Shown here: piece after piece, positions 9,048 to 27,035 of the stretch
Layout: each line of letters opens with the position of its first letter
Position numbering within the stretch: the stretch's first letter is position 1
Assembly (NCBI RefSeq): GCF_900107375.1
Contig: NZ_FNPT01000003.1
Span: forward strand, 1 to 64,000
Direction of reading: 5' to 3'
Origin: Lysobacter sp. yr284
GTDB lineage: Bacteria; Pseudomonadota; Gammaproteobacteria; Xanthomonadales; Xanthomonadaceae
DNA: 64,000 bases
Position numbers and translations under genes: made by a program
Notes under the pieces: generated by a model
Seen by the model: only the letters and a program-made list of their open reading frames with translations
Told to the model about the DNA's origin: nothing
Database searches by the model: none

Positions 9048-10706
9048 TCAGCGCCCCCATTCCAGCACCAGGGTCGCGGTGCCCACGCGCGGGTCGATCA
9101 GGGTCTCGATCACCGTGCACGCCTCGCGCAGGCCGAAGCCGGCGTGGTAGCGGCCCGGCACCAGCGCATCGCCGCCGGCCTCGCTGCGCCAGCGCAGTTG
9201 CGGCGGGCCGTCGCCGTCGCCGGCGGCGCGGATGTCGTGGCCGTCGACCTCGAACTGCGGATGCACGCGCAGGCGCGCGATCGCCTCGCCGAAGCGGCCG
9301 TCGATGCGGTCCTCGATGCGCAGCCCGCGCGGCGTCAGCGCCCAGCGCCGGCGATGCAGCGGCCGGCCCTTGAGCCGGCGGTAGCCGTCGTGCGCGGCGC
9401 TGAGCCACAGCGATTCGCCGTCGCGGCCGTGCGCGACCGTGCGCGGCCGCGCGCGCCGGGCGACGCGGAAGCTGGCCCACACTTCCGAGGAATCCTGGCC
9501 GTCGATCTCGACCGTGTTGTGCGCGGCGGTGCCGCGCTGCCACAGCCGCTCGGGATCGATGTCGTAGCGCGAGATGCCGGCGTTGACCAGCACCCGCCGG
9601 CCGCGCAGCGACAGTTCGAAGCTCAGGGTGTCGGCGTGGGCATGGCCGGGCAGGTAGTCCGGGCCGATTTCGCCGACATCGCAGATCAGCACCGCCTCGC
9701 CCGACTGCAGCCGCGCGTAGCCGGACTGCGGCAGCAGCTGCAGCGGCTCGCGCGAGGCCGGCGGCGGCTCGATGCCGAGCGCGCGGGCGTAGTCGTGCAG
9801 CGCCGCCAGCGACGGCGCGATGCCGAGCGCGGCGTCGTTGAAGAAGGCGATGCCGCCGTCGGGATGGGTCATCACCGCCAGCCACGCCAGCATCGACCGC
9901 GCCTTGTCGCGCCACAGCTGCACGTCGCGCTCGGGGAAAGCGTCGGGGTAGACCAGGGCCAGCTGGACCAGGTCGAGCAGGTCCTCCAGCAGGATCGCGT
10001 GGTACATCGGGCTGCGTTCGAAATGGCCGCCGTCGGCGAGGATCTGCTCGTCGATCTGCGCGCGCAGGCCGAACAGGCCCGCCTCGCGCCAGCGCACCGC
10101 CTCGGAGCCTTCGAAGAACGCGCCGGCGAACAGCAGCGCCTTGTAGTTCGCCCACAGATGGTTGCCGAGCAGGTGCCGTTCCAGCCGCCCGCGCAGGAAC
10201 CGCACCTGGGTGGCGAGGCTGTCGAGCGCGGCGCGCGCGCGCGCGGCGTCGCCGAACAGCTGGCCGCCGCAGCGCCACTTGATCCAGTTGACGATGCGCA
10301 GCGACAGGCAATACGGCTCCCAGCCGTTGCCGGCCGGCGGCGGGTTGTCGGCGATCCAGCGCGCGATCAGGTCGCGGTGCCAGTGCTCGCGCGAGGCCGC
10401 GCCGTCGGCGTTGAGGTCGTCGAAGTAATGCAGGTTGTACAGCCACAGCTTCGGCAGCCGGGTGCTGTTCCAGTCGTTGGCGCCGGCCTCGCGTTCGTCG
10501 TTGAGGAAGCGGAAGCGGGTCGGCCCCAGCATCGAGGGCGCGCGCGCGCAGGCGATCCAGCCGCGCTCGAAGGCGGCCATCTGCGGCGCCGGCGCGTGGG
10601 CCACGCGCGGGCGGTGCAGGCGGTGCCAGGCGCGGCCGTAGATCTGCACCGGGCGCAGATGGCGCACGGTGTGCCACAGCCGCGGCAGGCGCGTGGCCAG
10701 GCTCAT
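9048..10706 (-). CDS. Heparinase II/III family (alginate-lyase-fold) protein
   Basis: A 552-residue protein. Residues about 80-330 form the (alpha/alpha) toroid typical of polysaccharide lyases (LPKLWLYNLHYFDDL, LLGNHLWANYKALLFAGAFFEG). Residues about 345-540 form the heparinase II/III beta-sandwich, with GHAHADTLSFELSLRGRRVLVNAG and GISRYD containing likely His and Tyr catalytic residues. There is no recognisable signal peptide, so a periplasmic lyase role is not obvious. Such genes recur in Wzy-type clusters beside the two-domain oxidoreductase found next door; modification of a uronic-acid-containing intermediate, such as epimerisation or lysis, is possible. It starts 28 bases after the oxidoreductase stop. 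Confidence 0.83.
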   Translation of the reverse strand: MSLATRLPRLWHTVRHLRPVQIYGRAWHRLHRPRVAHAPAPQMAAFERGWIACARAPSMLGPTRFRFLNDEREAGANDWNSTRLPKLWLYNLHYFDDLNADGAASREHWHRDLIARWIADNPPPAGNGWEPYCLSLRIVNWIKWRCGGQLFGDAARARAALDSLATQVRFLRGRLERHLLGNHLWANYKALLFAGAFFEGSEAVRWREAGLFGLRAQIDEQILADGGHFERSPMYHAILLEDLLDLVQLALVYPDAFPERDVQLWRDKARSMLAWLAVMTHPDGGIAFFNDAALGIAPSLAALHDYARALGIEPPPASREPLQLLPQSGYARLQSGEAVLICDVGEIGPDYLPGHAHADTLSFELSLRGRRVLVNAGISRYDIDPERLWQRGTAAHNTVEIDGQDSSEVWASFRVARRARPRTVAHGRDGESLWLSAAHDGYRRLKGRPLHRRRWALTPRGLRIEDRIDGRFGEAIARLRVHPQFEVDGHDIRAAGDGDGPPQLRWRSEAGGDALVPGRYHAGFGLREACTVIETLIDPRVGTATLVLEWGR

Positions 10707-10734: not shown

Positions 10735-12891
10735 TCATACCGACGCGTCCAGTTCGAGGGTGACGCGCGCGACTTCGAAGATTTCCTCGGCCGGAATCGG
10801 CGGCGGCGCTTCGCCGCGCGCGGCGCGCATGAACGCCTGCGCGCAGGCGGCCTGGCCCTTGTCCTGGCTCCACAGATTCATCTTGGCGAAGCCCGGCCAG
10901 CCGTAGCCGCGCAGCTTGCGGAAGTTGTCCAGCGCCAGCACCCGGCCGGCGGCGAACACTTCCAGGCGCTCCTTGGGGAAGCTCTTGTGGCCGTTGGCGA
11001 GGTAATGCACGGTGCCGAACGAGCCGTCGGCGAAGCTCAGGGCGAAGCTGACCCGGTCGCTGCGGATGCCGACGCCGGCGACGTTGCCGACCGCGGTCAG
11101 CTGGTGGCCGACGATCGGCGCGCCGGCGAGGAAGCGCAGCAGGTCGACGAAATGGCAGGCCTCGCCGATCAGGCGGCCGCCGCCGGCCTGCGGGTCCTGG
11201 GTCCAGTGCTCGGCCGGGATCGCGCCGGCGTTGACGGTCATCACGAAGCTCTTGGGCTCGCGCACGCCGGCCAGCAACTGGTGGATCTTCTGCACTTGCG
11301 GGGCGAAGCGGCGGTTGAAGCCGACCATGAGCACCGGCGGCACGCCGTACACGGCCTGCTCGGCGTGCGCCTTCTCGATGGTCTGCAGCTCTTCCATCGT
11401 CAGGCACAGCGGCTTTTCCACGAACACGTGCTTGCCGCGGCGCAGCGCCTTGAAGGTCAGTTCGGCGTGGCTGGCGTGCTGGGTGGCGATCACCACCGAG
11501 CCCACCGCCGGATCGCGCAGCACCGCGCTGGTGTCGGTGCTGGCGTGGGAGAAGCCGAACTTCTTGCCGAAGTGCACGCTGCCCACGCCGTTGGCGGTCA
11601 CCACCGTGTGCAGGCGCGCGCCGGCCTTGGCGAAGGCGGGGATCAGCACGCGTCCGGCGTAGTTGCCCGCGCCGATGAAGGCCACCGCGTTGCGGTCGGC
11701 GTCGGCGCCGGCGGGCTCGCGCACGCTGGTGGCCACCGGCAGCGGGATGTGGCGGCGGATCAGGTGGTCGGCCATTTCCTCGCTGCGGCCGTAGTCGAGC
11801 ACGATGCCGAGCGACGGCCCGCCGCCGCCGAGCACGCCGTAGGCGGCCTCGGCCTCGGCGATGGGATAGCGGTGCGAAACCAGCGGCTGCAGCTGCAACG
11901 CGCCTGCGGCCATCATGTCCAGCACCGCCTCGAAGTTGCGCTGTTCGGTCCAGCGCACGAAGCCGACCGGATAGTCGTTGCCGCGCTCCTCGTAGGACGG
12001 GTCGTAGCGGCCCGGACCGTACGAGCACGACACCTGGAACGACAGCTCCTTCTCGTAGAAGTCCGCGCGCGACAGCTCCAGGCCGGTGACCCCGACCAGG
12101 ACGATGCGGCCGCGCTTGCGGCACATGTGCGCGGCCTGCGACACCGGCTCGTTGCTCTTGCTCGACGCGGTGATCAGCACCGCGTCGACGCCGCGTCCGC
12201 GCGAGAACGCCTGCGCCGCGGCGACCGGGTCCTCGCCCTTGGACAAATCGACGGTCTGCGCGCCGTAGCTGCGCGCCAGCGCCAGCTTGGCCGGGTCGAA
12301 ATCGATGCCGAGCACGCGGCAGCCGTGCGCGCGCAGCAACTGCACGGTGATCAGGCCGATCAGGCCCAGGCCGGTGACCACCACCGCCTCGCCCAGGCTC
12401 GGCTGGACCAGGCGGATGCCCTGCAGGCCGATCGCGGCGAGCACGGTGAAGGCGGCGGCTTCGTCGCCGACCTCGGCCGGGATCTTGGCGCACAGGTTGA
12501 CCGGCACGGCGACCACTTCGGCGTGCTTGCCGTTGCTGGCGACGCGGTCGCCGAGTTCGAACCCGGTCACGCCGGGGCCGACGCCGATCACCGTGCCGAC
12601 GTTGCAATAGCCCAGCGCCAGCGGCTGGTCGAGCTTGCTGCGCACCGCGTCCAGCGTGGTGGTCAGGCCGTCGGTGCGGATCTTCTCCAGCACCATGCGC
12701 ACCTTGTCGGGCTGCTGGCGCGCCTTCTGCAGCACGTTGGCCTTGCCGAACTCGACCAGCATGCGTTCGGTGCCGGCCGAAACCAGGGTGACGTGGCTGC
12801 GGATCAGCAGTTGCCCGCGGCGCAGCGCGGGAGCGGGGACGTCGGCGACTTCGGTGCTGCCGTCGCGCAGGTTTTGCAGGACTTGGTGCAT
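10735..12891 (-). CDS. Two-domain oxidoreductase: MDR alcohol dehydrogenase fused to Gfo/Idh/MocA
   Basis: A 718-residue protein. Residues 1 to about 370 are a medium-chain zinc-type dehydrogenase without an obvious structural-zinc loop (LALGYCNVGTVIGVG, ELGDRVASNGKHAE, and the nucleotide fold VVVTGLGLIGLITVQLLRAHG). Residues about 400-718 are a Gfo/Idh/MocA sugar dehydrogenase (AVAFIGAGNYAGRVLIPAF, VVIATQHASHAELTFKAL, VFVEKPLCLTMEEL, GEACHFVDLLRFL). This natural fusion is known from polysaccharide clusters, usually beside heparinase II/III-like genes, as here. It probably carries out successive redox steps on a nucleotide sugar or lipid-linked sugar; substrates are unknown. Start ATG is at 12891, with TTCCCGGAATTCCC-like sequence rather than a strong ribosome site upstream. 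Confidence 0.88.
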   Translation of the reverse strand: MHQVLQNLRDGSTEVADVPAPALRRGQLLIRSHVTLVSAGTERMLVEFGKANVLQKARQQPDKVRMVLEKIRTDGLTTTLDAVRSKLDQPLALGYCNVGTVIGVGPGVTGFELGDRVASNGKHAEVVAVPVNLCAKIPAEVGDEAAAFTVLAAIGLQGIRLVQPSLGEAVVVTGLGLIGLITVQLLRAHGCRVLGIDFDPAKLALARSYGAQTVDLSKGEDPVAAAQAFSRGRGVDAVLITASSKSNEPVSQAAHMCRKRGRIVLVGVTGLELSRADFYEKELSFQVSCSYGPGRYDPSYEERGNDYPVGFVRWTEQRNFEAVLDMMAAGALQLQPLVSHRYPIAEAEAAYGVLGGGGPSLGIVLDYGRSEEMADHLIRRHIPLPVATSVREPAGADADRNAVAFIGAGNYAGRVLIPAFAKAGARLHTVVTANGVGSVHFGKKFGFSHASTDTSAVLRDPAVGSVVIATQHASHAELTFKALRRGKHVFVEKPLCLTMEELQTIEKAHAEQAVYGVPPVLMVGFNRRFAPQVQKIHQLLAGVREPKSFVMTVNAGAIPAEHWTQDPQAGGGRLIGEACHFVDLLRFLAGAPIVGHQLTAVGNVAGVGIRSDRVSFALSFADGSFGTVHYLANGHKSFPKERLEVFAAGRVLALDNFRKLRGYGWPGFAKMNLWSQDKGQAACAQAFMRAARGEAPPPIPAEEIFEVARVTLELDASV

Positions 12892-12928: not shown

Positions 12929-13711
12929 TCAGGGGCGGGGCGCTGCGGGACGGGCGGGCTGGACGCGGCTGGACTGGATGAAGCTGCGGGTGACCGGCAC
13001 CCAGTCGCGTTCGCCGCCGCTGACGCGCTTGCTCCAGATGACCGCGCCGTCGGCGGCGCGATGCAGCTGGTCGAGCTGGAATTTCCAGTAGTCGGAGGCG
13101 ACGAACTCGCCGTCGCGCGGGGTCTTGTCGTGGTACTGCGGCCACACGAACGGCAGCACCGGCTTGGCCGGATCGAGCTTGCGCGCGGCCGCGACCATGT
13201 TGTCCAGGCGCCGGCGCCAGCGGTCGCGGTCGTCGTCGACGGTGTAGAGCGAGGGGAAGAACATATCCACCGACCCGGCCAGCTGCTTGCCGCGCGCGGG
13301 ATCGTTCTTGTCGATCGAGCCGGGGAAGCCGTAGTAGCCGATCTGGCGGCCGGGCGCGGCCTCGCGCGCCCAGCGCGCCAGGGTCTGCAGCTTGTCGAGG
13401 TTGGTCGCCGACAGCTGCGGGTCCTTGGCCAGGTTGATGTGCTCGAAGTCCAGCACCAGCGGCCCGGGATTGCCCAGGCTGGCGCGCACCGCGTCCTTGT
13501 AGCGCTTTTCGTCGGGCATCGTGCCCTTGGCCAGTTCCGGCAGCTGCGGCTCGCCGAGCAGGTTGGAGCGGGCGATGTCGAGGTGGCGGTCGTCGCCGTC
13601 GGTGTACTTGGTGTTGTTGTAGAGCTTGAAGTCGCGCGCGGCCGCGGCCGGCGCCGCCGTCAGCGCGAACGCGAGCAGCGCCGCGGCGAAGGCAAGGGTT
13701 CGCAAGGTCAT
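12929..13711 (-). CDS. Exported GH56 (hyaluronidase)-like TIM-barrel protein
   Basis: A 260-residue protein with a signal peptide (residues 1-24, ..AAPAAAA). I compare it with family GH56 on three blocks: GPLVLDFEHINL (D88 and E90, the DxE pair of hyaluronidases), RQIGYYGFPGS near 122-132 (GH56 proteins have a GYY.FP block) and MFFPSLYTVDDD near 150-161 (GH56 proteins have a .PSIY block). The similarity is by eye and moderate. If correct, it is a secreted glycoside hydrolase that could trim or release the polymer. Its ATG overlaps the stop of the glycosyltransferase gene at 13708 by 4 bases (ATGA), indicating translational coupling within the operon. A non-catalytic role or another TIM-barrel family remains possible. 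Confidence 0.6.
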   Translation of the reverse strand: MTLRTLAFAAALLAFALTAAPAAAARDFKLYNNTKYTDGDDRHLDIARSNLLGEPQLPELAKGTMPDEKRYKDAVRASLGNPGPLVLDFEHINLAKDPQLSATNLDKLQTLARWAREAAPGRQIGYYGFPGSIDKNDPARGKQLAGSVDMFFPSLYTVDDDRDRWRRRLDNMVAAARKLDPAKPVLPFVWPQYHDKTPRDGEFVASDYWKFQLDQLHRAADGAVIWSKRVSGGERDWVPVTRSFIQSSRVQPARPAAPRP

Positions 13712-14805
13712 GATTTTAGCTCCGCGCATTCGGCGATCACCCGCGCCATCGCCGTGTCCCAGGCCTCGTAGCGCAACTGGCGCAGGCCGGCGCGGCGCGC
13801 GTCCAGCAACGAGCGGTCGGCGTCGATGCGCAGCAGTTCGCGCGCCAGCTGGGCGCCGTCGCCGTAATCGGCCAGGAAACAGGCCTGGCGCTGTTCGAAC
13901 GGCGCCGAGGTGAACAGGCCGGGGTTGGTGAAGAACGGAATTTCCAGCGCGGCGCAGTCGAACCATTTGTTCGGTTCGGCCAGGCGGTTGATCTCCAGCG
14001 CCGGGTCGTAGAAGGCCAGCACCGCGTCGGAATCCAGCAGCATCGCCAGCGCCTCCTCGTTGCTGACGATGCCGCGGTAACGCTCGCCCAGGCTGTCGGC
14101 CAGGCGCTGCGCGTCGGGCCCGAGCAGGCGGCCGGCGGCGACGAAGTCGATCCGGCCGGCGCAGGCGTCGATGGCCTCGCGCATCATCGCGGCGCCGCGC
14201 TCGGGCGAGATCAGCCCGCTGACCAGCACCCGCAGGCGGCCGTCGCGCGGCGGCAGCGCCGCGGCGAGCTGGCGCGCGCGGGCGATGGTGTCGGTGTGCG
14301 GGGTGTTGCGCACCACCCGCACGTTGTCGCTGTCGTTGCCTTGCGTGCGCGAATCGCCCGGCACCACGTGCAGCGCGGCGCGGCGGCCGACGAAACGCTC
14401 CAGCCACTCGATGACGCGCTTGGCCGGCGCCGGCCAGGCGTAGCTCTTGGACAGCTTGTCGCGGTCGAGGAACACGTAGCGGCAGCGGCGCACGCTGGAG
14501 ACCAGGGCGCAGGGCAGGGCCGCGTCCAGGCGCGAGCAGAAATACACGCCGGCGCGCGGCTGGAAGAACACCCGAACCGTCAGCCACAGCACCCACAGCG
14601 CGTAGCCCAGCGCGTTGACTGCGCCGCCGCCCCAGGAGCCGAAGCTCAGCAGCACCCGCACCTTGGGCAGGTCGCGGGCCTGCTTGTCGCGGCTCCAGAT
14701 CCAGAACTCGTACGGCACCTGCGCGCTGTCGAGCACCTTCGACAGTTTCGCCAGGTACGGGTTCTTCAGGTATGGATTGCCTTGGCCGAGGATGATGGCT
14801 TGCAT
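13708..14805 (-). CDS. GT-B glycosyltransferase of the polysaccharide operon
   Basis: A 365-residue protein with two Rossmann-like halves. The N-terminal half (AIILGQGNPYLKNPYLAKLSK) includes a hydrophobic segment at about 65-85 that may touch the membrane; the C-terminal half has LRVLVSGLISPERGAAMMREAI and LAFYDPALEINRLAEPNKWFDCAALEIPFFTNP, which looks like the donor-binding region of family 4-type enzymes. Linkage and sugars are unknown. The gene starts about 46 bases after the Wzy-like gene stop and its own stop overlaps the GH56-like start by 4 bases. Assignment as a glycosyltransferase rests on fold-like motifs plus context. Confidence 0.75.
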   Translation of the reverse strand: MQAIILGQGNPYLKNPYLAKLSKVLDSAQVPYEFWIWSRDKQARDLPKVRVLLSFGSWGGGAVNALGYALWVLWLTVRVFFQPRAGVYFCSRLDAALPCALVSSVRRCRYVFLDRDKLSKSYAWPAPAKRVIEWLERFVGRRAALHVVPGDSRTQGNDSDNVRVVRNTPHTDTIARARQLAAALPPRDGRLRVLVSGLISPERGAAMMREAIDACAGRIDFVAAGRLLGPDAQRLADSLGERYRGIVSNEEALAMLLDSDAVLAFYDPALEINRLAEPNKWFDCAALEIPFFTNPGLFTSAPFEQRQACFLADYGDGAQLARELLRIDADRSLLDARRAGLRQLRYEAWDTAMARVIAECAELKS

Positions 14806-14851: not shown

Positions 14852-16048
14852 TCAGTGGGCGGCGGGCCGTAAGGGCGGTGGGCGTTGCGCGACCGGCGCG
14901 GCGCGGATCACGAACGCGGTCGACAGCGCGTAGAACATGCACAGGTACAGTTCCTTCGGGCTGGTGATGTCGCCGCTGAACATGGCGTTGGCCAGCGAAT
15001 AGATCGACAGCGCGCACAGGAAGGTGGCGACGAGGTCGCGGCCCTGGCTGCGCTTGGCGCTGCGGTACAGGCGCACGATCGCGTAGACGATCAGGGCGAA
15101 GAAGAGCACGGTGAAGATCAGTCCCGGTTCGATCAGGGTCTCGATCAGCAGGTTGTGCGGATACGGCTGCAGCGCGCCGCTGGCCTCGAACGCGCCGAAG
15201 CCCTTGCCGAACAGGGTCTCGCGCAGCATCGCGAACGACACGTCGTACAGGTTCATGCGCAGCACGTCGCTGCCGCTGTAGTTGCTGACGAACAGGCTGG
15301 CCAGCCGGTCCTTGATCCCGTCCGGCGCCAGCGCGGCCGCGGCCACGCCCAGCAGCAGCACCGCCAGCCCGGCCGCCCAGACCTTGCGCGAGAGCAGCAG
15401 CGCGCCGCGGTTGGTCAGCACCAGCAGCACGCCCAGGCCGAGCAGCAGCGACAGGATCGGCCCGCGCGAGCCGGCCAGCACCAGCGCCGCCACGCACGGC
15501 AGGATCAGGGCGACGCGCAGGGCGCGCAGGCGGGTCTCGGTCAGCAGGCGGTACGCCAGGAACATGATCGCGGTGCCGGCCGCGCGCGCGATCCAGATCG
15601 GATTGCCGTCGCCCTGCATCAGCCGCTGCGCGCCGGTGTCGGCGCCCTTGTTCATCGCCAGCGCGGCGATGCTGAGCGCGAAGCACAGCGCCACGTAGAT
15701 CTTGACGAACTGCTCGGCCGCCGCGCCGCGCAGCACGAAGCAGGCGCAGTAGGCGCAGAACACCAGGATCAGGTAGAACTTGAGTTCCTTCGGCCGGTGG
15801 CCGATGTGGGTGTCCAGGTACGCTATCTGGGCGAACGCGATCAGGCACACGATCGCCGGCAGCAGGCAGGCGAAGCGGTTGAGCCCGCTGTAGGACAGCG
15901 ACAGCCCGCCCAGCACGATGGTCGCGGCGATCGCCGCGTACTGGACGAGATCGGTGTCCACGGCGAAGAACACCGAGGCCCAGCCCGACAACAGGAACAG
16001 GCCCAGGCAGGCCGGCGCCAGCAACAGCTTGGGCGCGGGAATGCGCAT
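14852..16048 (-). CDS. Wzy-like O-antigen/exopolysaccharide polymerase
   Basis: A 398-residue integral membrane protein with roughly ten hydrophobic segments, beginning LLLAPACLGLFLLSGWASVFF and ending in FLCALSIYSLANAMFSGD. The Wzy_C-type block GKGFGAFEASGALQPYPHNLLIETLIEPG lies near residues 275-305 and contains the conserved His and Glu of this superfamily. It would polymerise lipid-linked repeat units at the outer face of the inner membrane. Wzy and WaaL ligase are hard to separate by sequence; the neighbouring flippase, Wzc and Wza favour a polymerase. It lies 16 bases after the acyltransferase gene. Confidence 0.8.
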   Translation of the reverse strand: MRIPAPKLLLAPACLGLFLLSGWASVFFAVDTDLVQYAAIAATIVLGGLSLSYSGLNRFACLLPAIVCLIAFAQIAYLDTHIGHRPKELKFYLILVFCAYCACFVLRGAAAEQFVKIYVALCFALSIAALAMNKGADTGAQRLMQGDGNPIWIARAAGTAIMFLAYRLLTETRLRALRVALILPCVAALVLAGSRGPILSLLLGLGVLLVLTNRGALLLSRKVWAAGLAVLLLGVAAAALAPDGIKDRLASLFVSNYSGSDVLRMNLYDVSFAMLRETLFGKGFGAFEASGALQPYPHNLLIETLIEPGLIFTVLFFALIVYAIVRLYRSAKRSQGRDLVATFLCALSIYSLANAMFSGDITSPKELYLCMFYALSTAFVIRAAPVAQRPPPLRPAAH

Positions 16049-16064: not shown

Positions 16065-16637
16065 TCAGCCCGCGCGCGCGCCGGCGAGCGCGGCCTGCTT
16101 CAGCGCGGCCTGCTCGACGGGGCCGACGCCGGCGCCGCGGGTCGCGCGCTCGACGTACTCGGCGACCGAGCCGACCACCTGGCCCGGATTGCCGACCACG
16201 ATGCTCAGCGGCGGAATCGCGCCGCGCACCACCGCGCCGGCGCCGACGATGCAGCCCGCGCCGATGTCGGCGCCGGGCATGATGATCGAGCCGGTGCCGA
16301 TGAAGGCGTGGCGGCCGATCGAGATCGGCTTGATCCGCCCCTGCGGTTTGTCGAACTTCAGCCCCAGTTCCTTGGCCACGGTGTGGATCGCCCAGTCGTG
16401 GGTGAGGATGCGCACGTTGCTGGAGATCGTGCAGCCCTTGCCGAGCCGGATCAGCGAGTAGTCGGTGCCGTCGAACCAGATCTTGGCCGACAGGTAGTTC
16501 GGCCGGTCTTCGATCTGCGCGCCTTCCGAACGCAGGAACCACACGTACAGGCGCGTGACCAGGCCGGGCTTGATGAACCAGCCCAGGCGGATGAGGCTCA
16601 GCACGACGGCCTTCTTGAGCAGGCGGAATACTTTCAT
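16065..16637 (-). CDS. Hexapeptide-repeat (left-handed beta-helix) acyltransferase
   Basis: A 190-residue acyltransferase. Hexapeptide repeats run through ISIGRHAFIGTGSIIMPGADIGAGCIVGAGAVVRGAIPPLSIVVGNPGQVVG (about residues 104-155), and a likely catalytic His sits in ILTHDWAIH near 78. Related WcaF/WcaB-type enzymes O-acetylate capsule or colanic-acid repeat units. An ATG at 16643 is in frame, but AGGAG at 16645-16649 lies only one base from it and exactly 7 bases from the ATG at 16637, so the later start is preferred. The gene is 10 bases from the flippase gene upstream. Confidence 0.84.
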   Translation of the reverse strand: MKVFRLLKKAVVLSLIRLGWFIKPGLVTRLYVWFLRSEGAQIEDRPNYLSAKIWFDGTDYSLIRLGKGCTISSNVRILTHDWAIHTVAKELGLKFDKPQGRIKPISIGRHAFIGTGSIIMPGADIGAGCIVGAGAVVRGAIPPLSIVVGNPGQVVGSVAEYVERATRGAGVGPVEQAALKQAALAGARAG

Positions 16638-16647
16638 GGGCATGCTC

Positions 16648-17943
16648 CTATGGACTTTTGCCGGCCGCCGCGGGCCAGCGCAGCTCGCGGCGGTTGCAGG
16701 TGGCGAAAACGACGAGTTGCACGGTCGAGGCGACCGCGTAGGCGATGGCCACGCCGGTGGCGCCGGCGCCGAGCTTGAGCGCCAGCGCGGCCGCGCCGAT
16801 CAGGCTGGCGGCGAAGGCGGCGTTGCCCAGCAGCATCACCGCCGGGCGCCCGTCGGCGGTGGCCTTGCGCATCAAGATGGTGGTCGGCGCGGTCGCCACC
16901 GCCGACAGCAGCAACCATTGCAGCGGCACCACCGCTTCGGCGTAGGCCGGGGCGAAACGCGCCACCGCCAGCGGCGCGGCCATGCCGAGCACGCCGGCGA
17001 GGCAGGCGGTGACCACCACCAGCAGGGCGATGGACTGGCGCAGGGTGCTGGCGGCTTCCTCGCGCGCGCCGCGCACGATCGCCGCCGACAGCATCGGCAG
17101 CGCCGCGTTGGCGACCACGCCCATGCCGAACAGCAGGATCGAGCGCGCCTGGTTGCCGAGCGCGAAATGGCCGAGTTCGGCGTCGCCGCGCGCGCTGTGC
17201 GCGAGCATCGCCATCGACAGCCAGATCGCCGGCATGGTCAGCAGGCCCGACAGCGAGGAGGGCAGGCCGAGCCGCCACACCACCGCCCAGTCCTCGCGCG
17301 TGGTCTTCGACCACGCCAGCGGCTCGGCGTGCTCGCGCCGATAGCGGCGCAGCACCCGTTCCTGGCCGATCACGATCAGCCATTGCGCGGCGATCGCGCC
17401 GTACATGGCCCAGCCGATGTCGCGCCGGGTCGCCGCCGCCCACATGATCGCGAACACCACCGGCGCGGTCAGCAGGTTGGCCGCGGCCTGTTGCTTGACC
17501 TTGTGCAGGGCCAGCGCCACGCCGTTCTGGATCGCGCCGACGAAGCCGGTCAGCACCAGCAGCGAGGAACTGGCGTAGACCACCGCCAGATCCGCCGAAC
17601 CGCCGAGCCTGACCGCCAGCGGATACGCGCAGGCCAGCAACAGCGCGGCGAACACCAGCGAGGCCAGCAGCGCCGAACCGTAGGACACGGTCAGCGCCGC
17701 CGAGACCCGGCCGCCGTCGCCGCGCGCGACCGCCTCGGCCACGATCTTGGTCGCCATCTGGCCCAGGCTCAGCGCGCAGAACGTGGTGAACAACAACGCG
17801 GTGGTCTGGATCAGGGTGAACTGGCCGAACGCGGCCGGGCCGAGGTAATGCGCGGCCGCCAGCACGCCGGCGAACAGCGCGCCGCGCGAGGCCATCGCGC
17901 TCACCGCCGACAGGCTGGCCGTGCCGATCAATCGCCGCATCAT
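16648..17943 (-). CDS. Wzx-like polysaccharide flippase
   Basis: A 431-residue membrane protein with about 12 predicted helices in the MATE/MOP arrangement (AMASRGALFAGVLAAAHYLG, then YLGPAAFGQFTLIQTTALLF, a block typical of Wzx/RfbX). It should translocate undecaprenyl-linked repeat units across the inner membrane. The gene lies between the acyltransferase and wecC with short gaps (10 and 40 bases), within the polysaccharide operon. Sequence does not give substrate specificity. Two adjacent ATG codons at 17943 and 17940 leave the exact start open by one residue. Confidence 0.85.
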   Translation of the reverse strand: MMRRLIGTASLSAVSAMASRGALFAGVLAAAHYLGPAAFGQFTLIQTTALLFTTFCALSLGQMATKIVAEAVARGDGGRVSAALTVSYGSALLASLVFAALLLACAYPLAVRLGGSADLAVVYASSSLLVLTGFVGAIQNGVALALHKVKQQAAANLLTAPVVFAIMWAAATRRDIGWAMYGAIAAQWLIVIGQERVLRRYRREHAEPLAWSKTTREDWAVVWRLGLPSSLSGLLTMPAIWLSMAMLAHSARGDAELGHFALGNQARSILLFGMGVVANAALPMLSAAIVRGAREEAASTLRQSIALLVVVTACLAGVLGMAAPLAVARFAPAYAEAVVPLQWLLLSAVATAPTTILMRKATADGRPAVMLLGNAAFAASLIGAAALALKLGAGATGVAIAYAVASTVQLVVFATCNRRELRWPAAAGKSP

Positions 17944-17983: not shown

Positions 17984-19240
17984 TCAGGTCCAGATGCCCT
18001 TGGTGTCGACGATCTTCATGTGCGCGGGCATGGCGTGCTCCTTGAAGGGCTTGTGGTCGACCAGCAGCACCGCGATGTCGGCTTCGCGGCTGGCGGTGGA
18101 CAGGTCGGACAGCACCACGTTGGGCGCGTTGAGCCTGGCCGGCAGCGCCTCGATGTGCGGCTCCACCGCCAGCACCGGGCCGGGGTGGCGCTGGGCCAGC
18201 TCGATCGCGATGCCCAGCGCCGGGCTTTCGCGCAGGTCGTCGATGTCGGGCTTGAACGCCAGCCCGAACACCGCGATCTTCAGATCCTTGTCCTGCTTGC
18301 CGGCGGCCTTGGCCTCATTGATGGCGGCGTCGATCTTGTCCATCACCCAGCCGGGCTTGCCGTTGTTGACCTCGCGCGCGGTGCGGATCAGGCGGGCCTC
18401 GGCCGGCGCGCTGTCGACGATGAACCACGGGTCCACCGCGATGCAGTGGCCGCCCACGCCGGGGCCGGGCTGCAGGATGTTGACGCGCGGGTGGCGGTTG
18501 GCCAGGCCGACCAGCTCCCACACGTTGATGCCGAGCTTGTCGCAGATGATCGACAGCTCGTTGGCGAAGGCGATGTTGACGTCGCGGAACGCGTTCTCGG
18601 TGAGTTTGCACATCTCGGCGGTGCGCGCGTTGGTGACGATGCACTGGCCGCGCACGAAGCTCTTGTACAGTTCGGCCGCGCGCTGCGAGCAGCGTGGGGT
18701 CATGCCGCCGATGACGCGGTCGTTCTCGACCAGCTCGCGCATCACCTGGCCCGGCAGCACGCGTTCGGGACAATGGGCGACGTTGACGTCGGCGGCCTCG
18801 AACGCGTGCTGCGGGAAGCTCAGGTCCGGGCGCGCCTCGGCCAGCCACTGCGCCAATTGCTCGGTCGCGCCGACCGGCGAGGTCGATTCCAGCACCACCA
18901 GATCGCCTTTCTGCAGCACCGGCGCCAGCGCCTTGGCCGCGGCTTCGATGTAGGCCAGGTCGGGCTGGTGGTCGCCCTTGAACGGCGTCGGCACCGCGAT
19001 CAGGTAGGCGTCGGCGTGCTCGGGCGTCAGGCTGGCGCGCAGGAAGCCGCCGGCCACCGCGGCGCGCACGGCGACGTCGAGGTCGGGCTCGACGATGTGG
19101 ATCTCGCCGCGGTTGATCGTGTCCACGACCGAGGCGGTCACATCGACGCCGATCACGCGCTTGCGCACCGCGGCGAACGCGGCGGCGGTGGGGAGGCCGA
19201 TGTAACCCAGGCCGATGACCGAGACGGTGTCGAAACTCAT
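17984..19240 (-). CDS. wecC: UDP-N-acetyl-D-mannosamine dehydrogenase
   Basis: A 418-residue enzyme of the UDP-glucose/GDP-mannose dehydrogenase family, predicted to oxidise UDP-ManNAc to UDP-ManNAcA with two NAD. It has the dinucleotide motif SVIGLGYIGLPTA near residue 7, the central-helix block AEMCKLTENAFRDVNIAFANEL near 210, and the catalytic cysteine in GVGGHCIAVDPWF near 258. The alignment blocks fit WecC rather than Ugd. WecC normally works after WecB, whose equivalent is the C-terminal half of the next gene upstream (19363-21747). The start ATG at 19240 gives a length close to E. coli WecC (420). Confidence 0.92.
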   Translation of the reverse strand: MSFDTVSVIGLGYIGLPTAAAFAAVRKRVIGVDVTASVVDTINRGEIHIVEPDLDVAVRAAVAGGFLRASLTPEHADAYLIAVPTPFKGDHQPDLAYIEAAAKALAPVLQKGDLVVLESTSPVGATEQLAQWLAEARPDLSFPQHAFEAADVNVAHCPERVLPGQVMRELVENDRVIGGMTPRCSQRAAELYKSFVRGQCIVTNARTAEMCKLTENAFRDVNIAFANELSIICDKLGINVWELVGLANRHPRVNILQPGPGVGGHCIAVDPWFIVDSAPAEARLIRTAREVNNGKPGWVMDKIDAAINEAKAAGKQDKDLKIAVFGLAFKPDIDDLRESPALGIAIELAQRHPGPVLAVEPHIEALPARLNAPNVVLSDLSTASREADIAVLLVDHKPFKEHAMPAHMKIVDTKGIWT

Positions 19241-19362: not shown

Positions 19363-21747
19363 TCAGGCGGCCAGCAGCGAGTCTTCGCGGCGGAACTGCG
19401 CCAGCGCGGCGACGATGCGCTCGCACGCCAGGCCGTCGCCGTAGGGGTTGTGGGCGAAGCTCATCGCTTCGTAGGCGGCGCGGTCGCCGAGCAGTTCGCT
19501 GATGCCGGCGCAGATCAGCTCGCGGTCGGTGCCGACTAGCTTGACCGTGCCGGCGGCGACCGCCTCGGGCCGCTCGGTGGTGTCGCGCATGACCAGCACC
19601 GGCTTGCCCAGCGACGGCGCTTCTTCCTGGATGCCGCCGGAGTCGGTCAGGATGATGTGGGCGCGGTTCATCAGGTACACGAACGGCAGGTATTCCAGCG
19701 GCTCGATCAGGTGCACGTTGGCGATCCCGCGCAGCAGGCGGTTGACCGGCTCGCGCACCTGCGGGTTGAGGTGCACCGGATAGACGATGTCGATCTCCGG
19801 ATGGCGCAGCGCGGTGTCGCGCAGCGCCTCGCAGATGCGCTCGAAGCCGCCGCCGAAGCTCTCGCGGCGATGGCCGGTGACCAGCACCACCTTGCGCTCG
19901 TCGCGCAGGAACCCGAACTGGGCGGCGATGTCGCGGCGCAGCTGCGGGGTGCGCTCGATCCGCACCAGCACGTCCTTGAGCGCGTCGATCACGGTGTTGC
20001 CGGTGATGGCGATGCGCTCGTCGGGGATGCCTTCCTCGCGCAGGTTGCCGCGCGACAGCTCGGTCGGGGCGAAGTGGATCGCCGCCAGCGCGCCGGTGAG
20101 CTTGCGGTTGGCTTCCTCCGGCCACGGCGAGTACAGGTTGCCGGTGCGCAGGCCGGCCTCGACGTGGGCCACCGGAATCTGCTGGTAATACGCGGCCAAG
20201 GTCGCGGCCATCGTGGTCGAGGTGTCGCCGTGGACCAGCACCACATCGGGCTTGAGCTCGGCCAGCACCGCCTTCATCCCGGTCAAGATCGCGGTGGTGA
20301 CGTCGGTGAGGTCCTGCTTGGGCTTCATGATGTTGAGGTCGAAGTCCGGCTCGATCTCGAACAACTGCAGCACCTGGTCGAGCATCTGCCGGTGCTGGCC
20401 GGTCACGCACACGCGCGCGTCGAAGCGCGGGTCCTGCGCGAGCATCTTGGCCAGCGGCGCCATCTTGATCGCTTCGGGGCGGGTGCCGAACACGCACAGG
20501 GTCTTGATCGCCGGGCCGAGCTGGGCGGAGGCGGCCGCCGCCGGCGCCAGCGGGGCGAAACCGCCCGCGCCGGCGGCTTCGTTCAAGGCGCTGCGCGCGT
20601 ACGCGGCGGCGCCGGCGGGGCCCGGCGCGGCGGACGCCGGCTGGCGCTCGCGCTCGCGGCCCGACGGGCCCTGCTGGGCGAACGCGAGCTGGCGCGGCGG
20701 GCGCGGCAGCCAGTCCGGCAGCTTGTTGCGGTCGCCGTTGCTCAGGGTCAGCGAATACAGGCCGAGCATGGCGAAGAACGCGAGCAGCCCGAACATCGTC
20801 GGCAGGTTGCGCAGCGCGTAGCCGACGGCGACCAGGGCGCAGGCCAGGCCGACGATGGTCAGCAGCGCGGTCTTGGGCGAGCGCTCGCGGTCGATCAGCA
20901 GATAGTGCAGGTGCTGGCGGTCGGGCTTGAACGGCGACAGGCCGCGGCGCACGCGCCGGTACATCAGGTTCAAGGTCTCCAGCAGCGGCAGGGCGATGCA
21001 CCACAGCGCCTCGGCGGCGTCGATCCGGGCCGGGCCGCGCTGGCTCAGGTAGATCAGGCTCCAGGCCATCACGTAGCCGATCAGCATGCTGCCGGCGTCG
21101 CCCATGAAGGCCTTGCGCCCGTTGATGCCGCCCAGGTTGACGAACAAGAACGGCAGCAGCGCGACGAACAACAACGCCAGGCTCGGCAGCGCGCCCTTGT
21201 CGAGCACGTTGCCGCGGTCGAACAGGAAGATCGCGCCGATGCAGACCAGGGCGACGCTGGCGGCGAGCCCGTCGATGCCGTCGAGCATGTTGAAGGCGTT
21301 GATCGTGCCGACCACGGCGATGACCGTGACCGGTACGCCGAGCCAGCCCAGGTGGATCGCCCCGGTGCCGAACAGGTCGCCCACCTCGTCGAGCCACACG
21401 CCGCTGCCGGTGATCATCAATCCGACCGCGATCGACTGCACCAGCAGGCGCGTGCGCACGCTCAGGTCGCGCGCGTCGTCGAACGCGCCGAGCGCCACCA
21501 CCAGTGCGGCGGTGGCCAGCAGGCTCATGCTGTAGCGGTCGCCGAGCTGCAGGTACAGCGCGCCGGCGAGCAGGCCGAGGAAGAAGCTGATGCCGCCGAT
21601 GACGGGGATCTCGCCCTTATGCTGCTTGCGCGCATCGGGGCGGTCGACCAGCCCGAGCCGGGCGGCGCTGGGATGCAGCGCGTACATCGACAACGCAGTG
21701 ATCGCGACGCTGAGTGCGCCCGCAATGACGAATTGTTCTTTCATCAT
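19363..21747 (-). CDS. WecA-WecB fusion: GlcNAc-1-phosphate transferase joined to UDP-GlcNAc 2-epimerase
   Basis: One uninterrupted frame of about 794 residues. The first ~340 form a membrane phosphoglycosyl transferase of the WecA/MraY family: FDDARD near residue 90, [13 protein letters not shown] near 150-162 and [10 protein letters not shown] near 275-284 carry the expected Asp and His motifs. A Pro/Ala-rich linker of about 70 residues follows. The last ~380 form a complete non-hydrolysing UDP-GlcNAc 2-epimerase: [45 protein letters not shown] and [12 protein letters not shown]. So one polypeptide should both prime undecaprenyl phosphate with GlcNAc-1-P and make UDP-ManNAc. Alternative starts are 21753 (ATG) and 21762 (TTG); GGAA spaced 9 bases favours 21747. 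Confidence 0.9.
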
Positions 21748-22398: not shown

Positions 22399-24621
22399 TC
22401 ACGCGCCGGAGCGGTACTCGTAGCCGTAGGCGTAGTGGGTGTCGTGGCGGCGCTCGACCGCGTTGAACACCGCACCCTTGAGGTCGATGCCGTTCTGCTC
22501 GAAGCGCTGTACGGCCAGCGCGAGCTCCTTGGCGGGATTGAGGCCGAAGCGCACCACCATCAGGCAGGTGCCGGCGTGGCGGCCGATCAGGGCCGCGTCG
22601 GTCACCGCCAGGATCGGCGGCGTATCGACGATGACCAAATCGTACTGCAGCGCCGCGGTCTTGAGCACCGCGCCCAGTTCCGGCCGCATCAGCAGCTCGG
22701 ACGGATTCGGCGGCGCCTCGCCGCGCGGGATGAAGAACAGGTTGTCGATCGGCGTGCGCCGGGTCGCGGCGGGGATGTCGATGCGCCCGGCGAGCAGGTC
22801 CGACAGGCCGTTGCGCGGGTCCTGGCCGAGCACCTTGTGCAGGCTGCTGCGGCGCAGGTCGCCGTCGATCAGCAGCACCCGCTGGCCGCCCTGGGCGATG
22901 GTTGCGGCGAGGTTGGTGGAGACGAAGGTCTTGCCGGCGCCGGGGCTGGAGCCGCAGATCATCAGGATGTTGTTGCCGGCGTCGAGGCGAGCGAAGTGCA
23001 GGGCGGTGCGCAGGCTGCGCATGGCCTCGATCGCCAGGTCGTTGGGCGCGTCGATGGCCAGCAGGTGCGGCTTGCCGTTGTGGCCGCCGCCGGCGCGCAG
23101 CTTGCGTCCGGCCTTCTCGTGATCGCGCTGGAACGCGCTCATCGGGATCGAGGCCAGCACCGGCAGGCCGATCTGCTCGATCTCGGCCACCTGCTCGACG
23201 CCGCGGTTGAGCATCTGCCGCAGGAACACATAGGCCACGGCCAGGAAGCCGGCGAGGAAGGTGCCGATGGCGACCGCCAGCGCGCGCTTGGGCTTGACCG
23301 GCTGGCTGGTGTCGACCACCGCGCGGTCGACGATGCGGGCGTTGCCGACGGTGCCGGCGCGGGCGATGTCGAGCTGCTGGGCCTGGTTGAGCAGGTTGGT
23401 GTAGGTCAGGGTGCTGACCTGCACCTCGCGGGTCAGGCCGATCAGTTCCTGCTGGGTCTGCGGCAGGGTGCCGATGCGATCGTTGATCTTCTGCTTGCTC
23501 GCCTCCAGCTCGCCGATCTGCGCCATCAGCGCCTTGTAGGCCGGATGCGCGGGGGTGTAGCGGCGGGTCACCTCGGCCTGCTGCAGGCGCAGCTGCGAGA
23601 TGCTGGTGTCCAGCGAGACGATCTGGTCGAGCAGCGACTTGGCGTCGAGGGTGATGTCGACGGTGTGCGCCTGCGACTGGTACCGGGCCAGGGCGTGCTC
23701 GGCCTTTTCCAGATCGCGGCGCACGTTGGGCAGCTGCTTGTTGACGAACTGCAGGCTGTTGGCGGCTTCGGCCGAGTTGCGCTCGATGTTCTGGCGGATG
23801 TACTGGCGGGTGATCGCCTCCAGCGTGGCCTGGGCCAGGACCGGGTCGCCGAGCTCGTAGCTGAGCTGGATGATGCCCGAGTCCTTGGCCTTCTCGCTCG
23901 CGGTGAGGTTGTTCTGCAGCGAGGCGATGATGCCCAGGCGCGCGAGCTGGGTGACTTCGAAGCGCATGCCCGGATTGGCCAGCAGGCGCTCGACCTTGAG
24001 CCTGGCGCCGCCGCCGACCGCGAGCTGGCCGGCGTCGCCGCCGAGCAGGCGCTGGTCCTGGTCGTCGAACAGTTCGAAGCTGCCGTTGGCGCCGGCGATC
24101 AGGGTCAGCGGCTTGCCGACCAGGTCCAGCGGCACTTCGAGTTCGGCGATGTCGAGCGTCTCGCCGCCCCAGCCGTAGCGGCTCAGGCCGAACCACGGCG
24201 CGGCGACTTCGTTGCCGGTGCCGGGCTGGAAGCGGCGCGCGATCGCCGCGCCGATCAGCGGGAAGCGCGCGGGCTCGACCTGCAGGTCGAGCTTGAGATC
24301 GTCCACCGCCTTGCCCAGCGTGGTGCGCGAGGTCAGCAGCGACACTTCGGTCATCGCCTGCGGCGCCGAATCGGTCAGCGCCTGCGAGACCGCGGTCAGG
24401 CCGGGCAGGGTGGGGGTCTTGGACTCCACCTGCACCATCGCGTTGGCCTGGTACACCGGCGCGGCGAGCAGCGCGTAGGCCACGCTCAGGGCGAAGCCGA
24501 GCGCAGTGGCGGCGCCGACCAGCCACTTGTGGTCGAGCAGGGTGCCCAGCAGCGCGGCCAGGTCGATTTCGTCGTTGCCGGCGTCCTGGCGCGGGCCGGA
24601 CGTGGTGGAAACTGCCGCCAT
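22399..24621 (-). CDS. wzc: Wzc-type polysaccharide co-polymerase and tyrosine autokinase
   Basis: A 740-residue inner-membrane protein. An N-terminal Wzz domain starts DEIDLAALLGTLLDHKWLVG and includes the first membrane segment; a long periplasmic coiled coil follows, then GNARIVDRAVVDTSQPVKPKRALAV into the second segment near residue 470. The C-terminal BY-kinase has Walker A GSSPGAGKTF, Walker A' VLLIDGDLRR and Walker B VIVDTPPI. The tail ends HYAYGYEYRSGA with four tyrosines, the usual autophosphorylation cluster. It should control chain length and export with Wza. The ATG at 24621 fits the family N-terminus; the frame is open to 24708, but that part looks non-coding. A 263-base gap separates it from wzb. 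Confidence 0.92.
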   Translation of the reverse strand: MAAVSTTSGPRQDAGNDEIDLAALLGTLLDHKWLVGAATALGFALSVAYALLAAPVYQANAMVQVESKTPTLPGLTAVSQALTDSAPQAMTEVSLLTSRTTLGKAVDDLKLDLQVEPARFPLIGAAIARRFQPGTGNEVAAPWFGLSRYGWGGETLDIAELEVPLDLVGKPLTLIAGANGSFELFDDQDQRLLGGDAGQLAVGGGARLKVERLLANPGMRFEVTQLARLGIIASLQNNLTASEKAKDSGIIQLSYELGDPVLAQATLEAITRQYIRQNIERNSAEAANSLQFVNKQLPNVRRDLEKAEHALARYQSQAHTVDITLDAKSLLDQIVSLDTSISQLRLQQAEVTRRYTPAHPAYKALMAQIGELEASKQKINDRIGTLPQTQQELIGLTREVQVSTLTYTNLLNQAQQLDIARAGTVGNARIVDRAVVDTSQPVKPKRALAVAIGTFLAGFLAVAYVFLRQMLNRGVEQVAEIEQIGLPVLASIPMSAFQRDHEKAGRKLRAGGGHNGKPHLLAIDAPNDLAIEAMRSLRTALHFARLDAGNNILMICGSSPGAGKTFVSTNLAATIAQGGQRVLLIDGDLRRSSLHKVLGQDPRNGLSDLLAGRIDIPAATRRTPIDNLFFIPRGEAPPNPSELLMRPELGAVLKTAALQYDLVIVDTPPILAVTDAALIGRHAGTCLMVVRFGLNPAKELALAVQRFEQNGIDLKGAVFNAVERRHDTHYAYGYEYRSGA

Positions 24622-24884
24622 TGGGGGGAAGGCCTTGGATGGGAAGTGGAGCGACGCGCCCGCGGGCGCGCTTGCGGATCGGGCCTGGCAACGCGTGCGT
24701 CCATGCATCGCCGTGCGCAGGCGACACCGCGCCTGCGCGCGAGGCGCTGCGCGACGTCGGGTTTCAGCGCATCGCGGCGCAGCTGAGCAGCGGGTCCGGG
24801 AGCGGCGCGTCCATGAGCATCGCCGTTGCGGGCATCGAATTCCGGCGCTTCGCGCTCAAAACCCCGATGTCCGCCGCCTCGCGC

Positions 24885-25316: not shown

Positions 25317-25937
25317 ACGCAAAACCCGTCAGTTTTAGCCGTCATGCGCAAACTCGCGCGGCATCGGTGCCGCATCGCGCGCCGTATTGCGAACCCGCCC
25401 CCCGACCGGCCCGCAACGAGGCGGGAATGTATAGACGAGGTCATGACACGGTCAACACGAACTCCACACGCATCGAGCAAGTCGTGACGCAGTTCACTTC
25501 GATGCTTTCCTTTTCGTTCAAGCACGCGCCGCGAATCCACGCATTTCGCTTACGCGGCGTTAAACATTCGTTTTTATCGGCGATCGCGCGATGCGCGTTG
25601 CGCAGGCGCTGCGCGCGCCCGGTTTTCTAACCTCACCTGTACGCGGCGTGCGCCATCGGCGAAACGTGATGCGATTCCGCCGCAGGCGCGTGACAGCGAT
25701 GCGCGCGCGGTGGCTATACTGCGCGCCACGGGGGCTCCACCAACTTTGTGCGTGACGCTTACAGCCCCATGTCGCAACCCAGCCTCCATCCCCCGCACCG
25801 CGCCGCCCCGCCGGCGCAACCGCGCCGATGTCGCGCCGGACAAGCGGTTTCGCACGAAACTTCCCCTGCGCCGACGGCCCGCCCCTGCGCGCCGCGGCAC
25901 GCCCCCTTCGTGTTCCCGCTCTAGAGACTCTTTCCGC
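25317..25937. promoter_or_regulatory. Divergent regulatory region between wzb and wza
   Basis: About 620 bases without a convincing gene. The stretch 25420-25640 is clearly less GC-rich than the surroundings (for example GCGTTAAACATTCG and TTTTTATCGG), as expected of promoter DNA. Minus-strand signals for wzb should lie on its left side, and a plus-strand promoter is visible at 25691-25720. An ORF running from 25710 into wza without a stop is probably an untranslated leader, because wza's lipoprotein signal begins at 25938. Confidence 0.55.
25691..25720 (+). promoter_or_regulatory. Predicted sigma-70-like promoter for wza
   Basis: A TGACAG at 25691-25696 and a near-consensus -10 TATACT at 25715-25720 are 18 bases apart. 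Transcription would begin near 25727, giving a leader of about 210 nucleotides before the wza ATG. Confidence 0.5.
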
Positions 25938-27035
25938 ATGATCAAGATTTCGGGCGTCGCGGCCGTGGCCGCCATCGTCGGACTCGGCGGCTGCGCGTTC
26001 GCGCCGGGCCAGTACATCTCGCCCGCGCAGTTCGCGCGCAGCGACCTGGCGAAGGACGGCCACATCCAGATGGTGGCGATCACGCCCGATTACCTGTCCG
26101 CGCAACAGCGGGTCGAGACCACGATCCCGATCGAGCTGATGGCCTACCAGCCCGAGGCCTACCGCATCGGCCGCGGCGACACGTTGTACATCACCATCTG
26201 GGACCATCCCGAACTGACCTCGCCGGCCGGCACCCAGCAGCAGACCGCGGCCAACGGCCGCCTGGTGCGGCCGGACGGGACCTTGTTCTATCCCTACGTC
26301 GGCATGATCCGCGCCGAGGGCCTGACCATCGAGGAACTGCGCGCGCAGATCACCTCGCGCATCTCGCACTATGTGCAAAGCCCGCAGGTCGACGTCAGCA
26401 TCATCGACTACGGCAGCCAGCGGGTGACCCTGCAGGGCGCGTTCGTCAAGACCGAGCGCCAGCCGATCACCGCGACGCCGCTGACCCTGGCCCAGGCGAT
26501 CGGCGCGGCCACGGTCGATCCGATCCGCGCCGACCTGGCCGGCTTCGTGCTGACCCGCGACGGCCGCCAGTACCACCTGGACCTGGACGAGCTCAACCGC
26601 GGCGGCTCGGTCGCCAAGGACATCTACCTCAAGGCCGGCGACCACCTGTACATGCCCTACAACGACCGCAAGGAGGTCTATGTGGTCGGCGAGGTGGTGC
26701 GGCCGCAGGCGATGACCTTCAAGACCACCGACCTGACCCTGACCCAGGCCCTGGGCCGCGCCGGCGGGCTCAACCCGCTGACCGCCAAGGGCGACTCGGT
26801 ATACGTCATACGCGGGGTGGAGACCCAGGACCGCGAGCCGGCGAAGATCTTCCACCTCAGCGCCAAGTCGCCGGCCGCGTTCGCGCTCGGCAGCCGCTTC
26901 CACGTGCGCGCCGGCGACGTGGTGTTCGTCGGCCCGGCCGGGGTGACCCGCTGGAACCGCTTCGTCAACCAGTTGCTGCCGTTGTCCAACATCGTCAACA
27001 ACGCCGCCAACACCCAGGACCTGCTCGACCGCTGA
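25938..27035 (+). CDS. wza: Wza-like outer-membrane polysaccharide export lipoprotein
   Basis: A 365-residue protein. The signal MIKISGVAAVAAIVGLGGC has a lipobox (LGGC, Cys19). The mature part holds a poly-export domain (YRIGRGDTLYITIWDHPEL, GRLVRPDGTLFYPYVGMI, GLTIEELRAQIT) and SLBB-like repeats (VTLQGAFVKTERQPITATPLTLAQAI and VYVVGEVVRPQAMTFKTTDLTLTQAL). It would form the outer-membrane channel fed by Wzc. The ATG at 25938 is chosen for the lipoprotein signal, although only a weak purine stretch (AGAGAC) precedes it and the frame is open upstream. Unlike the usual wza-wzb-wzc order it is divergent from wzb-wzc. Confidence 0.9.
   Translation: MIKISGVAAVAAIVGLGGCAFAPGQYISPAQFARSDLAKDGHIQMVAITPDYLSAQQRVETTIPIELMAYQPEAYRIGRGDTLYITIWDHPELTSPAGTQQQTAANGRLVRPDGTLFYPYVGMIRAEGLTIEELRAQITSRISHYVQSPQVDVSIIDYGSQRVTLQGAFVKTERQPITATPLTLAQAIGAATVDPIRADLAGFVLTRDGRQYHLDLDELNRGGSVAKDIYLKAGDHLYMPYNDRKEVYVVGEVVRPQAMTFKTTDLTLTQALGRAGGLNPLTAKGDSVYVIRGVETQDREPAKIFHLSAKSPAAFALGSRFHVRAGDVVFVGPAGVTRWNRFVNQLLPLSNIVNNAANTQDLLDR

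Follow-up and report, generated by a model that had tools for sequence, protein, structure and literature searches.

The window analysed here is the whole stretch of 64,000 bp from Lysobacter sp. yr284, in which one gene on the minus strand encodes a WecA-type and a WecB-type domain in a single chain (Table 1). The gene starts with an ATG at 21747, ends with a TGA at 19363-19365 and encodes 794 amino acids without an internal stop; the plus strand of 19363-21747 is interrupted by a stop. The preliminary description of one uninterrupted frame with WecA-type motifs followed by WecB-type motifs is thus borne out. Its placement of the gene at the head of a polysaccharide operon is plausible, with Wzc ending 651 bp upstream and WecC starting 122 bp downstream on the same strand. 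Judging from its genes, the surrounding cluster is of the Wzx/Wzy exopolysaccharide type, and the presence of both WecB and WecC predicts UDP-ManNAcA as one of the donors.

Table 1. Positions of the fusion gene, its parts and the neighbouring genes in the window
Feature	Position	Strand	Remarks
DUF218 protein, far cluster end	7036..7779	-	
GT4-type glycosyltransferase	7787..9043	-	
Heparinase II/III-like protein	9048..10706	-	
Two-domain dehydrogenase (ADH_zinc_N + GFO_IDH_MocA)	10735..12891	-	kept in class A loci
Conserved cluster protein, possibly glycosyltransferase	13708..14805	-	without Pfam match
Wzy_C polymerase/ligase-type protein	14852..16048	-	Pfam
Hexapeptide-repeat acyltransferase-like protein	16065..16643	-	Pfam
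Wzx-type flippase	16648..17943	-	PF01943
WecC, UDP-ManNAc dehydrogenase	17984..19240	-	NF008286, 726 bits (cut-off 459)
WecA-WecB fusion gene	19363..21747	-	794 aa plus stop
WecB half	19366..20508	-	residues 414-794
Linker	20509..20739	-	residues 337-413; disordered in AlphaFold model (pLDDT <50 at 348-407)
WecA half, membrane GlcNAc-1-P transferase type	20740..21747	-	residues 1-336
Wzc, tyrosine autokinase and chain-length co-polymerase	22399..24708	-	profile matches
Wza exporter, open frame	25713..27035	+	limits of the open frame

The first enzymes of the cluster are those of the E. coli wec operon for enterobacterial common antigen (ECA), where they are encoded by separate genes; the window cluster differs further by its Wza and Wzc and its heparinase-like gene. 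In annotated enterobacterial records, wecA, wzzE and wecB lie close together. A frame of 623 amino acids, whose start presumably resembles an Hsp90-type ATPase, adjoins Wza at 27181-29052 (+). The genome also contains a second, distant WecA-like gene (37%; G000:C32:392129-392920). A relative of the DUF218 protein (43-44%) occurs near two early-branching fusions (L180 and L197); ElyC, a regulator of ECA in E. coli, is a DUF218 protein.

Sequence features

The amino-terminal half of the fusion contains the Pfam domain Glycos_transf_4 (PF00953; residues 74-234, 102.5 bits with a cut-off of 27) and the carboxy-terminal half Epimerase_2 (PF02350; residues 435-782). Among the NCBIfam models, TIGR00236 (wecB) was passed with 511.5 bits (cut-off 210.15) and TIGR02380 (ECA_wecA) was failed with 257.7 bits (cut-off 326.05). 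According to the latter model, the WecA half is WecA-like but not an ECA WecA, and because its score is below the cut-off, the assignment of GlcNAc as its substrate relies on family membership. The half has the residues D90 and D91, the motif NAFNMxDGxDG with D156 and D159, and HLH at 279-281 (H279, H281), which we take to be the catalytic residues of E. coli WecA; their equivalents are invariant across 30 aligned fusions. E. coli WecA, a UDP-GlcNAc:undecaprenyl-phosphate GlcNAc-1-P transferase of the PNPT family, shares PF00953, the DD pair, NAFNMxDGxDG and HxH with the fusion. It is a separate protein, however, whereas the window chain misses the ECA_wecA cut-off and continues into a linker and an epimerase.

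The WecB half was aligned in register with E. coli WecB (RffE; 1f6d, 1vgv) over E. coli residues 2-371, and the Vibrio WecB also aligned with the whole half. In E. coli numbering (window residue minus 413), all 11 positions checked (R10, K15, D95, E117, E131, H213, R215, S290, G291, E296 and R313) are present and shared with the E. coli enzyme, and we assume that they have catalytic roles. E. coli WecB is a separate protein, whereas that of the window is covalently tied to a membrane primer.

Over the 99 residues measured in the linker region, the combined content of proline and alanine is 36%, so that its earlier characterization as a Pro/Ala linker is fair. An AlphaFold model of the fusion (70-row alignment) has high confidence in both halves, a disordered linker (Table 1) and a pTM of 0.54; as modelled, the halves would have no fixed arrangement, and the model gives no sign that favours a channel. 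After the HLH loop it contains two more long helices, by which the chain exits the WecA half on the side of that loop, presumably the cytoplasmic side as in the WecA family.

Occurrence

A WecA-epimerase fusion is present in at least 51 of 297 sampled genomes of the family. Seventy-six fused frames were reduced to 50 by removal of those with identical last 400 residues. The best 80 loci of a search of genome contigs include fusions in Lysobacter and Luteimonas, with L. enzymogenes (91%) as the closest named relative. In Kangiella (L038), WecA and WecB are separate adjacent genes with about 12 bases between them.

Outside the family, the WecA half was used as query against 200 genomes of the order, and 321 genomes were searched for the class. 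The nearest WecA outside the family, among the order matches listed, belongs to family f12 and is a stand-alone protein (frames of 371-471 residues in the eleven examined, L116-L126). None of the 20 long WecA-matching frames examined among the matches listed for order and class has an epimerase: three frames of about 800 amino acids (L188-L190) lack an Epimerase_2 domain by Pfam, and 17 frames of 536-827 amino acids (L231-L245, L249, L250) have no epimerase match; these 20 are a part of the long frames listed, which also include many of about 540-600 amino acids. In the phylum (398 genomes), both halves were matched, among the matches listed, only in the window genome and in family member G016, where it must be considered that few candidates per genome are scored and rare fusions can be missed. 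A listed frame of 848 amino acids in G978 was rejected as a fusion, the corresponding locus (L248) showing an epimerase frame of 381 amino acids without a WecA match. Of ten plasmid records shown, four have wecA, wzzE and wecB as separate genes and one has wecA and wzzE; five are unannotated. The preliminary description could not say how widespread the fusion is, and this is now answered in part: it is frequent in the family, and none was found outside the family in the samples taken, among the matches listed. A literature search, which left most subscription journals uncovered, returned nothing on a WecA-WecB fusion; domain databases may list the architecture.

Conservation and decay of the epimerase half

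Fifteen non-redundant fusions, including that of the window, have a complete epimerase domain (class A). The other class A epimerase halves are 79-98% identical to that of the window, and all 11 epimerase positions are present in 15/15 class A fusions; of the 75 stand-alone WecB proteins, 74 likewise have the full set and one is without R215. WecC scores above its cut-off in every class A genome and is located 76-170 bp downstream of the fusion. A separate epimerase with more than 35% identity was found in none of the 15 genomes (listing at E 1e-20). The comparison of cluster contexts suggested in the preliminary description was carried out: all 14 class A loci (12 distinct) have the gene order Wzc, fusion, WecC, Wzx, acyltransferase. 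In all nine class A pairs, the epimerase half had a lower dN/dS ratio (NG86) than the WecA half; like those of the other classes below, these pairs were picked by closeness and not at random, and some of them share branches.

The class A linkers vary from 74 to 104 residues and the frames remain open throughout. This, together with the gap in Kangiella, which is too short, rules out the other explanation raised earlier, that separate halves are joined by intergenic sequence read through as a linker. A sequencing or assembly artefact that deleted a stop or merged frames might be suspected in a draft genome of 46 contigs; since 14 other non-redundant class A fusions have the same frame, five of them in single-contig genomes (G293, G252, G173, G138, G283), we give it practically no credence. 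Internal initiation in the linker would yield two proteins from the gene, and some class A linkers indeed have an in-frame ATG near the epimerase start (L008 and L010, at -6). No such start is conserved across the 15 linkers, however: in the window, the sole candidate is a TTG located 25 codons ahead of the epimerase, and L003 lacks any within 85 codons, which makes two products very unlikely. It is equally improbable that the window epimerase half is non-catalytic and acts as a regulator only. Such a role would be in line with the loss of active-site residues in the class B and C relatives, but none of the residues examined has been lost in the 15 class A fusions, the epimerase half is the more constrained half in the class A pairs, WecC is adjacent, and a search of the genome revealed no second close WecB.

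The epimerase domain of the remaining fusions is decayed or halved (classes B and C; 35 non-redundant fusions, or 36 with the further class B fusion G091). Compared with the window, their WecA halves are about 48-55% identical and their epimerase halves 28-47% over the aligned part. R10 is kept in 0/36 of them. Among the 33 fusions included in the other residue counts (27 of class B and 6 of class C; L180, L181 and G091 were left out), R313 is kept in none, H213 and E131 in three each, E117 in 10 and D95 in 22, although the alignment at decayed positions is uncertain and some kept residues may be due to chance. The class B fusion L017 keeps D95, E117 and E131. The combination of R10, D95, E117, E131 and H213 occurs in 0/33 class B and C fusions, in contrast to 15/15 class A fusions and 75/75 stand-alone WecB proteins. 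We also considered whether class B belongs to a different epimerase family; this is ruled out, as 10/10 class B and C proteins scanned matched wecB better than any other epimerase model (above the cut-off in L017 and L041, below it in eight). The substitutions point to a loss of epimerase activity in both classes.

The gene neighbourhood and the genome content agree with such a loss of epimerase chemistry. The fusion is followed by Wzc in 29 of 30 class B and C loci (28 distinct), the thirtieth being L181, whose frame stops at a contig end; a second contig from this genome (L247) encodes the carboxy-terminal part of an epimerase, and L181 may be a whole class B gene. WecC is absent from the fetched stretch (6-19 kb) of all 30 loci, and was found above the cut-off anywhere in the genome in 5/36 class B and C genomes versus 15/15 of class A. 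A separate epimerase with at least 56% identity is present in 11/36 of these genomes, among them all five with WecC, versus 0/15 of class A; the remaining 25 have no separate epimerase match above 37% (listing at E 1e-20). After Wzc, two B-type loci (L197, L200) have an asparagine-synthase-like gene and right-handed beta-helix proteins, in a cluster unlike that of the window.

In seven fusions (L180, L182-L187), the second Rossmann domain has been lost. The gap begins after position 172-183 and ends before 359-363, which we take to match the limits of that domain in the epimerase, and the sequence resumes just before the last helix, which is recognisable in 7/7. Placed by hand, the trimmed fusions fall into four places on the WecA tree (L180; L182; L183 and L184; L185-L187). 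An AlphaFold model of the trimmed L183 (602 residues) has a mean pLDDT of 84.5, with values of 69-96 per ten-residue block for residues 381-570. A Foldseek search with this model returned WecB structures first (3dzc, 6vlb, 1f6d; E about 1e-9), followed from rank 12 by MraY, matching the membrane half.

In 15 class B and C pairs, likewise chosen by closeness, the dN/dS ratio (NG86) of the epimerase half was 0.12-0.40 and exceeded that of the WecA half in 12. The decayed domains are therefore constrained, more weakly but really. That domain I is better conserved than domain II in most class B pairs (322 of 351) says little in this respect, because stand-alone WecB shows the same bias (2429 of 2775 pairs).

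The fused domain of classes B and C might nevertheless be a functionless, decaying remnant, the fusion having served only to carry two enzymes. The lost active-site residues, the weaker constraint on the epimerase half in those 12 pairs and the deletion of the second domain in seven fusions could all be read in this way. We consider it a doubtful explanation all the same: dN/dS stays low in every pair, the frames remain open over long divergence, the seven trims have almost identical limits and leave both the first domain and a recognisable last helix in place, and the trimmed domain modelled, that of L183, folds confidently in AlphaFold. That domains have been retained next to Wzc even when decayed or halved suggests instead a further structural or regulatory, non-catalytic role, which may exist in the active form too.

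Phylogeny

In the WecA tree, the fusions form one clade (86/92) that is sister to the stand-alone proteins of f12; class A is supported with 82/71 and classes B and C together with 100/96. AU tests did not reject trees that group class A (p 0.31) or classes B and C (p 0.35) with f12. In the epimerase trees, one of them a quick tree, class B has very long branches, and class A, class B and stand-alone WecB form almost a trifurcation; the reading of a single origin was not rested on these trees, which the long B branches dominate. In direct comparisons, 34 of 35 class B and C epimerase domains (all except L210) have their highest score with a class A domain and not with one of the 75 stand-alone WecB proteins, as do only 2 of 15 distant epimerases used as control. 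A comparison of median scores, in which 35/35 class B and C domains favour class A, was not counted as evidence, as 12/15 controls show the same. R165 is found in all class A and 94% of class B and C rows but in 4% of the stand-alone WecB proteins of this set; E. coli WecB also has an arginine at this position.

These comparisons favour, but do not prove, one ancestral fusion of an active WecB. Two separate fusions, one leading to class A and the other to classes B and C, would fit the AU tests, which leave trees that split the fusions standing, and a small epimerase tree that joins class B near the node of class A and stand-alone WecB with weak support. Given the single clade in the WecA tree, the resemblance of the class B and C epimerase domains to class A and the position next to Wzc in both groups, we regard two fusions as less likely than one. 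A WecB about 75% similar to that of the window on a contig labelled Chitinophaga pinensis (L070, a metagenome-assembled genome) groups with Burkholderiales and is probably mis-binned.

Discussion

The window protein is very probably a bifunctional, membrane-anchored WecA-WecB enzyme that supplies WecC for a Wzx/Wzy polysaccharide. The WecA half would transfer GlcNAc-1-phosphate from UDP-GlcNAc to undecaprenyl phosphate; a flexible linker of some 75 residues would join its cytoplasmic carboxy terminus to the WecB half, an intact UDP-GlcNAc 2-epimerase of the non-hydrolysing type. The UDP-ManNAc made by this second half would then be oxidised by WecC to UDP-ManNAcA for a Wzx/Wzy-type exopolysaccharide. 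Presumably, both halves are active and remain parts of a single translated chain, and the tether would bring the formation of UDP-ManNAc to the priming site; this might increase its local availability or link its formation to priming. The preliminary description had proposed that both steps are tied on the cytoplasmic face of the membrane, perhaps channelling UDP-GlcNAc or fixing the ratio of its two uses. The part that is well supported is the presence of both activities on one polypeptide at this face, because the residues are conserved, WecC is adjacent in all class A loci examined, no other close WecB was found in the class A genomes and the epimerase half is strongly constrained.

For the ECA pathway, the order of action is described as WecA, WecB and WecC (PMC12212991). 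UDP-GlcNAc is the common substrate of WecA and WecB, the former using it for priming the lipid carrier and the latter for making a later sugar. In E. coli, the UDP-ManNAc of WecB has been proposed to serve NfrB for a different exopolysaccharide as well (PMC8669469); pathway allocation is therefore a real question for cells. A natural covalent fusion is a direct test case for whether sugar supply is organised at the priming enzyme, and among its relatives the same fused domain occurs as an apparently active enzyme, a full-length pseudo-enzyme and a half domain, each behind an intact primer half.

In evolutionary terms, the fused WecB, active at first, would have kept its activity in Lysobacter and part of Luteimonas, and the other carriers found would have retained it as a pseudo-enzyme. 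Most of the fusions found in relatives lost the epimerase residues yet kept the domain, so that the tether is not accounted for by catalysis alone. The tethered domain might regulate WecA or serve as its scaffold, either alongside catalysis or in place of it; it could, for instance, sense UDP-GlcNAc or dock Wzc, the Lysobacter protein being bifunctional and most other carriers regulatory only. We advance this tentatively, at somewhat less than an even chance. If true, the family would contain a living series from enzyme to pseudo-enzyme to half epimerase inside one fused protein, in which the second Rossmann domain would have been lost more than once, each time with almost identical limits. 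For annotation, it follows that a match to the WecB family in the examined class B and C fusions does not prove production of UDP-ManNAc.

The known fusion of a 2-epimerase and a kinase likewise joins a 2-epimerase to an enzyme of its own pathway, but the epimerase is of a different type and the partner is the downstream kinase. Two other gammaproteobacterial families have WecA fused to Wzy_C in one frame of about 800 amino acids (L189:4113-6566 (-) and L190:4453-6849 (+)); here, WecA is likewise fused to a polysaccharide enzyme, the partner being of the O-antigen ligase/polymerase type and not an epimerase. A further frame of 801 amino acids (L188:3258-5660 (+)) has a WecA-type domain at its carboxy terminus (473-733), and its first 470 residues are without a Pfam match and may be partly non-coding. 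Finally, a recurrent longer PNPT-like type in other Gammaproteobacteria is represented by frames of 536-678 amino acids (L237-L245, L249, L250) that match WecA at about 30%.
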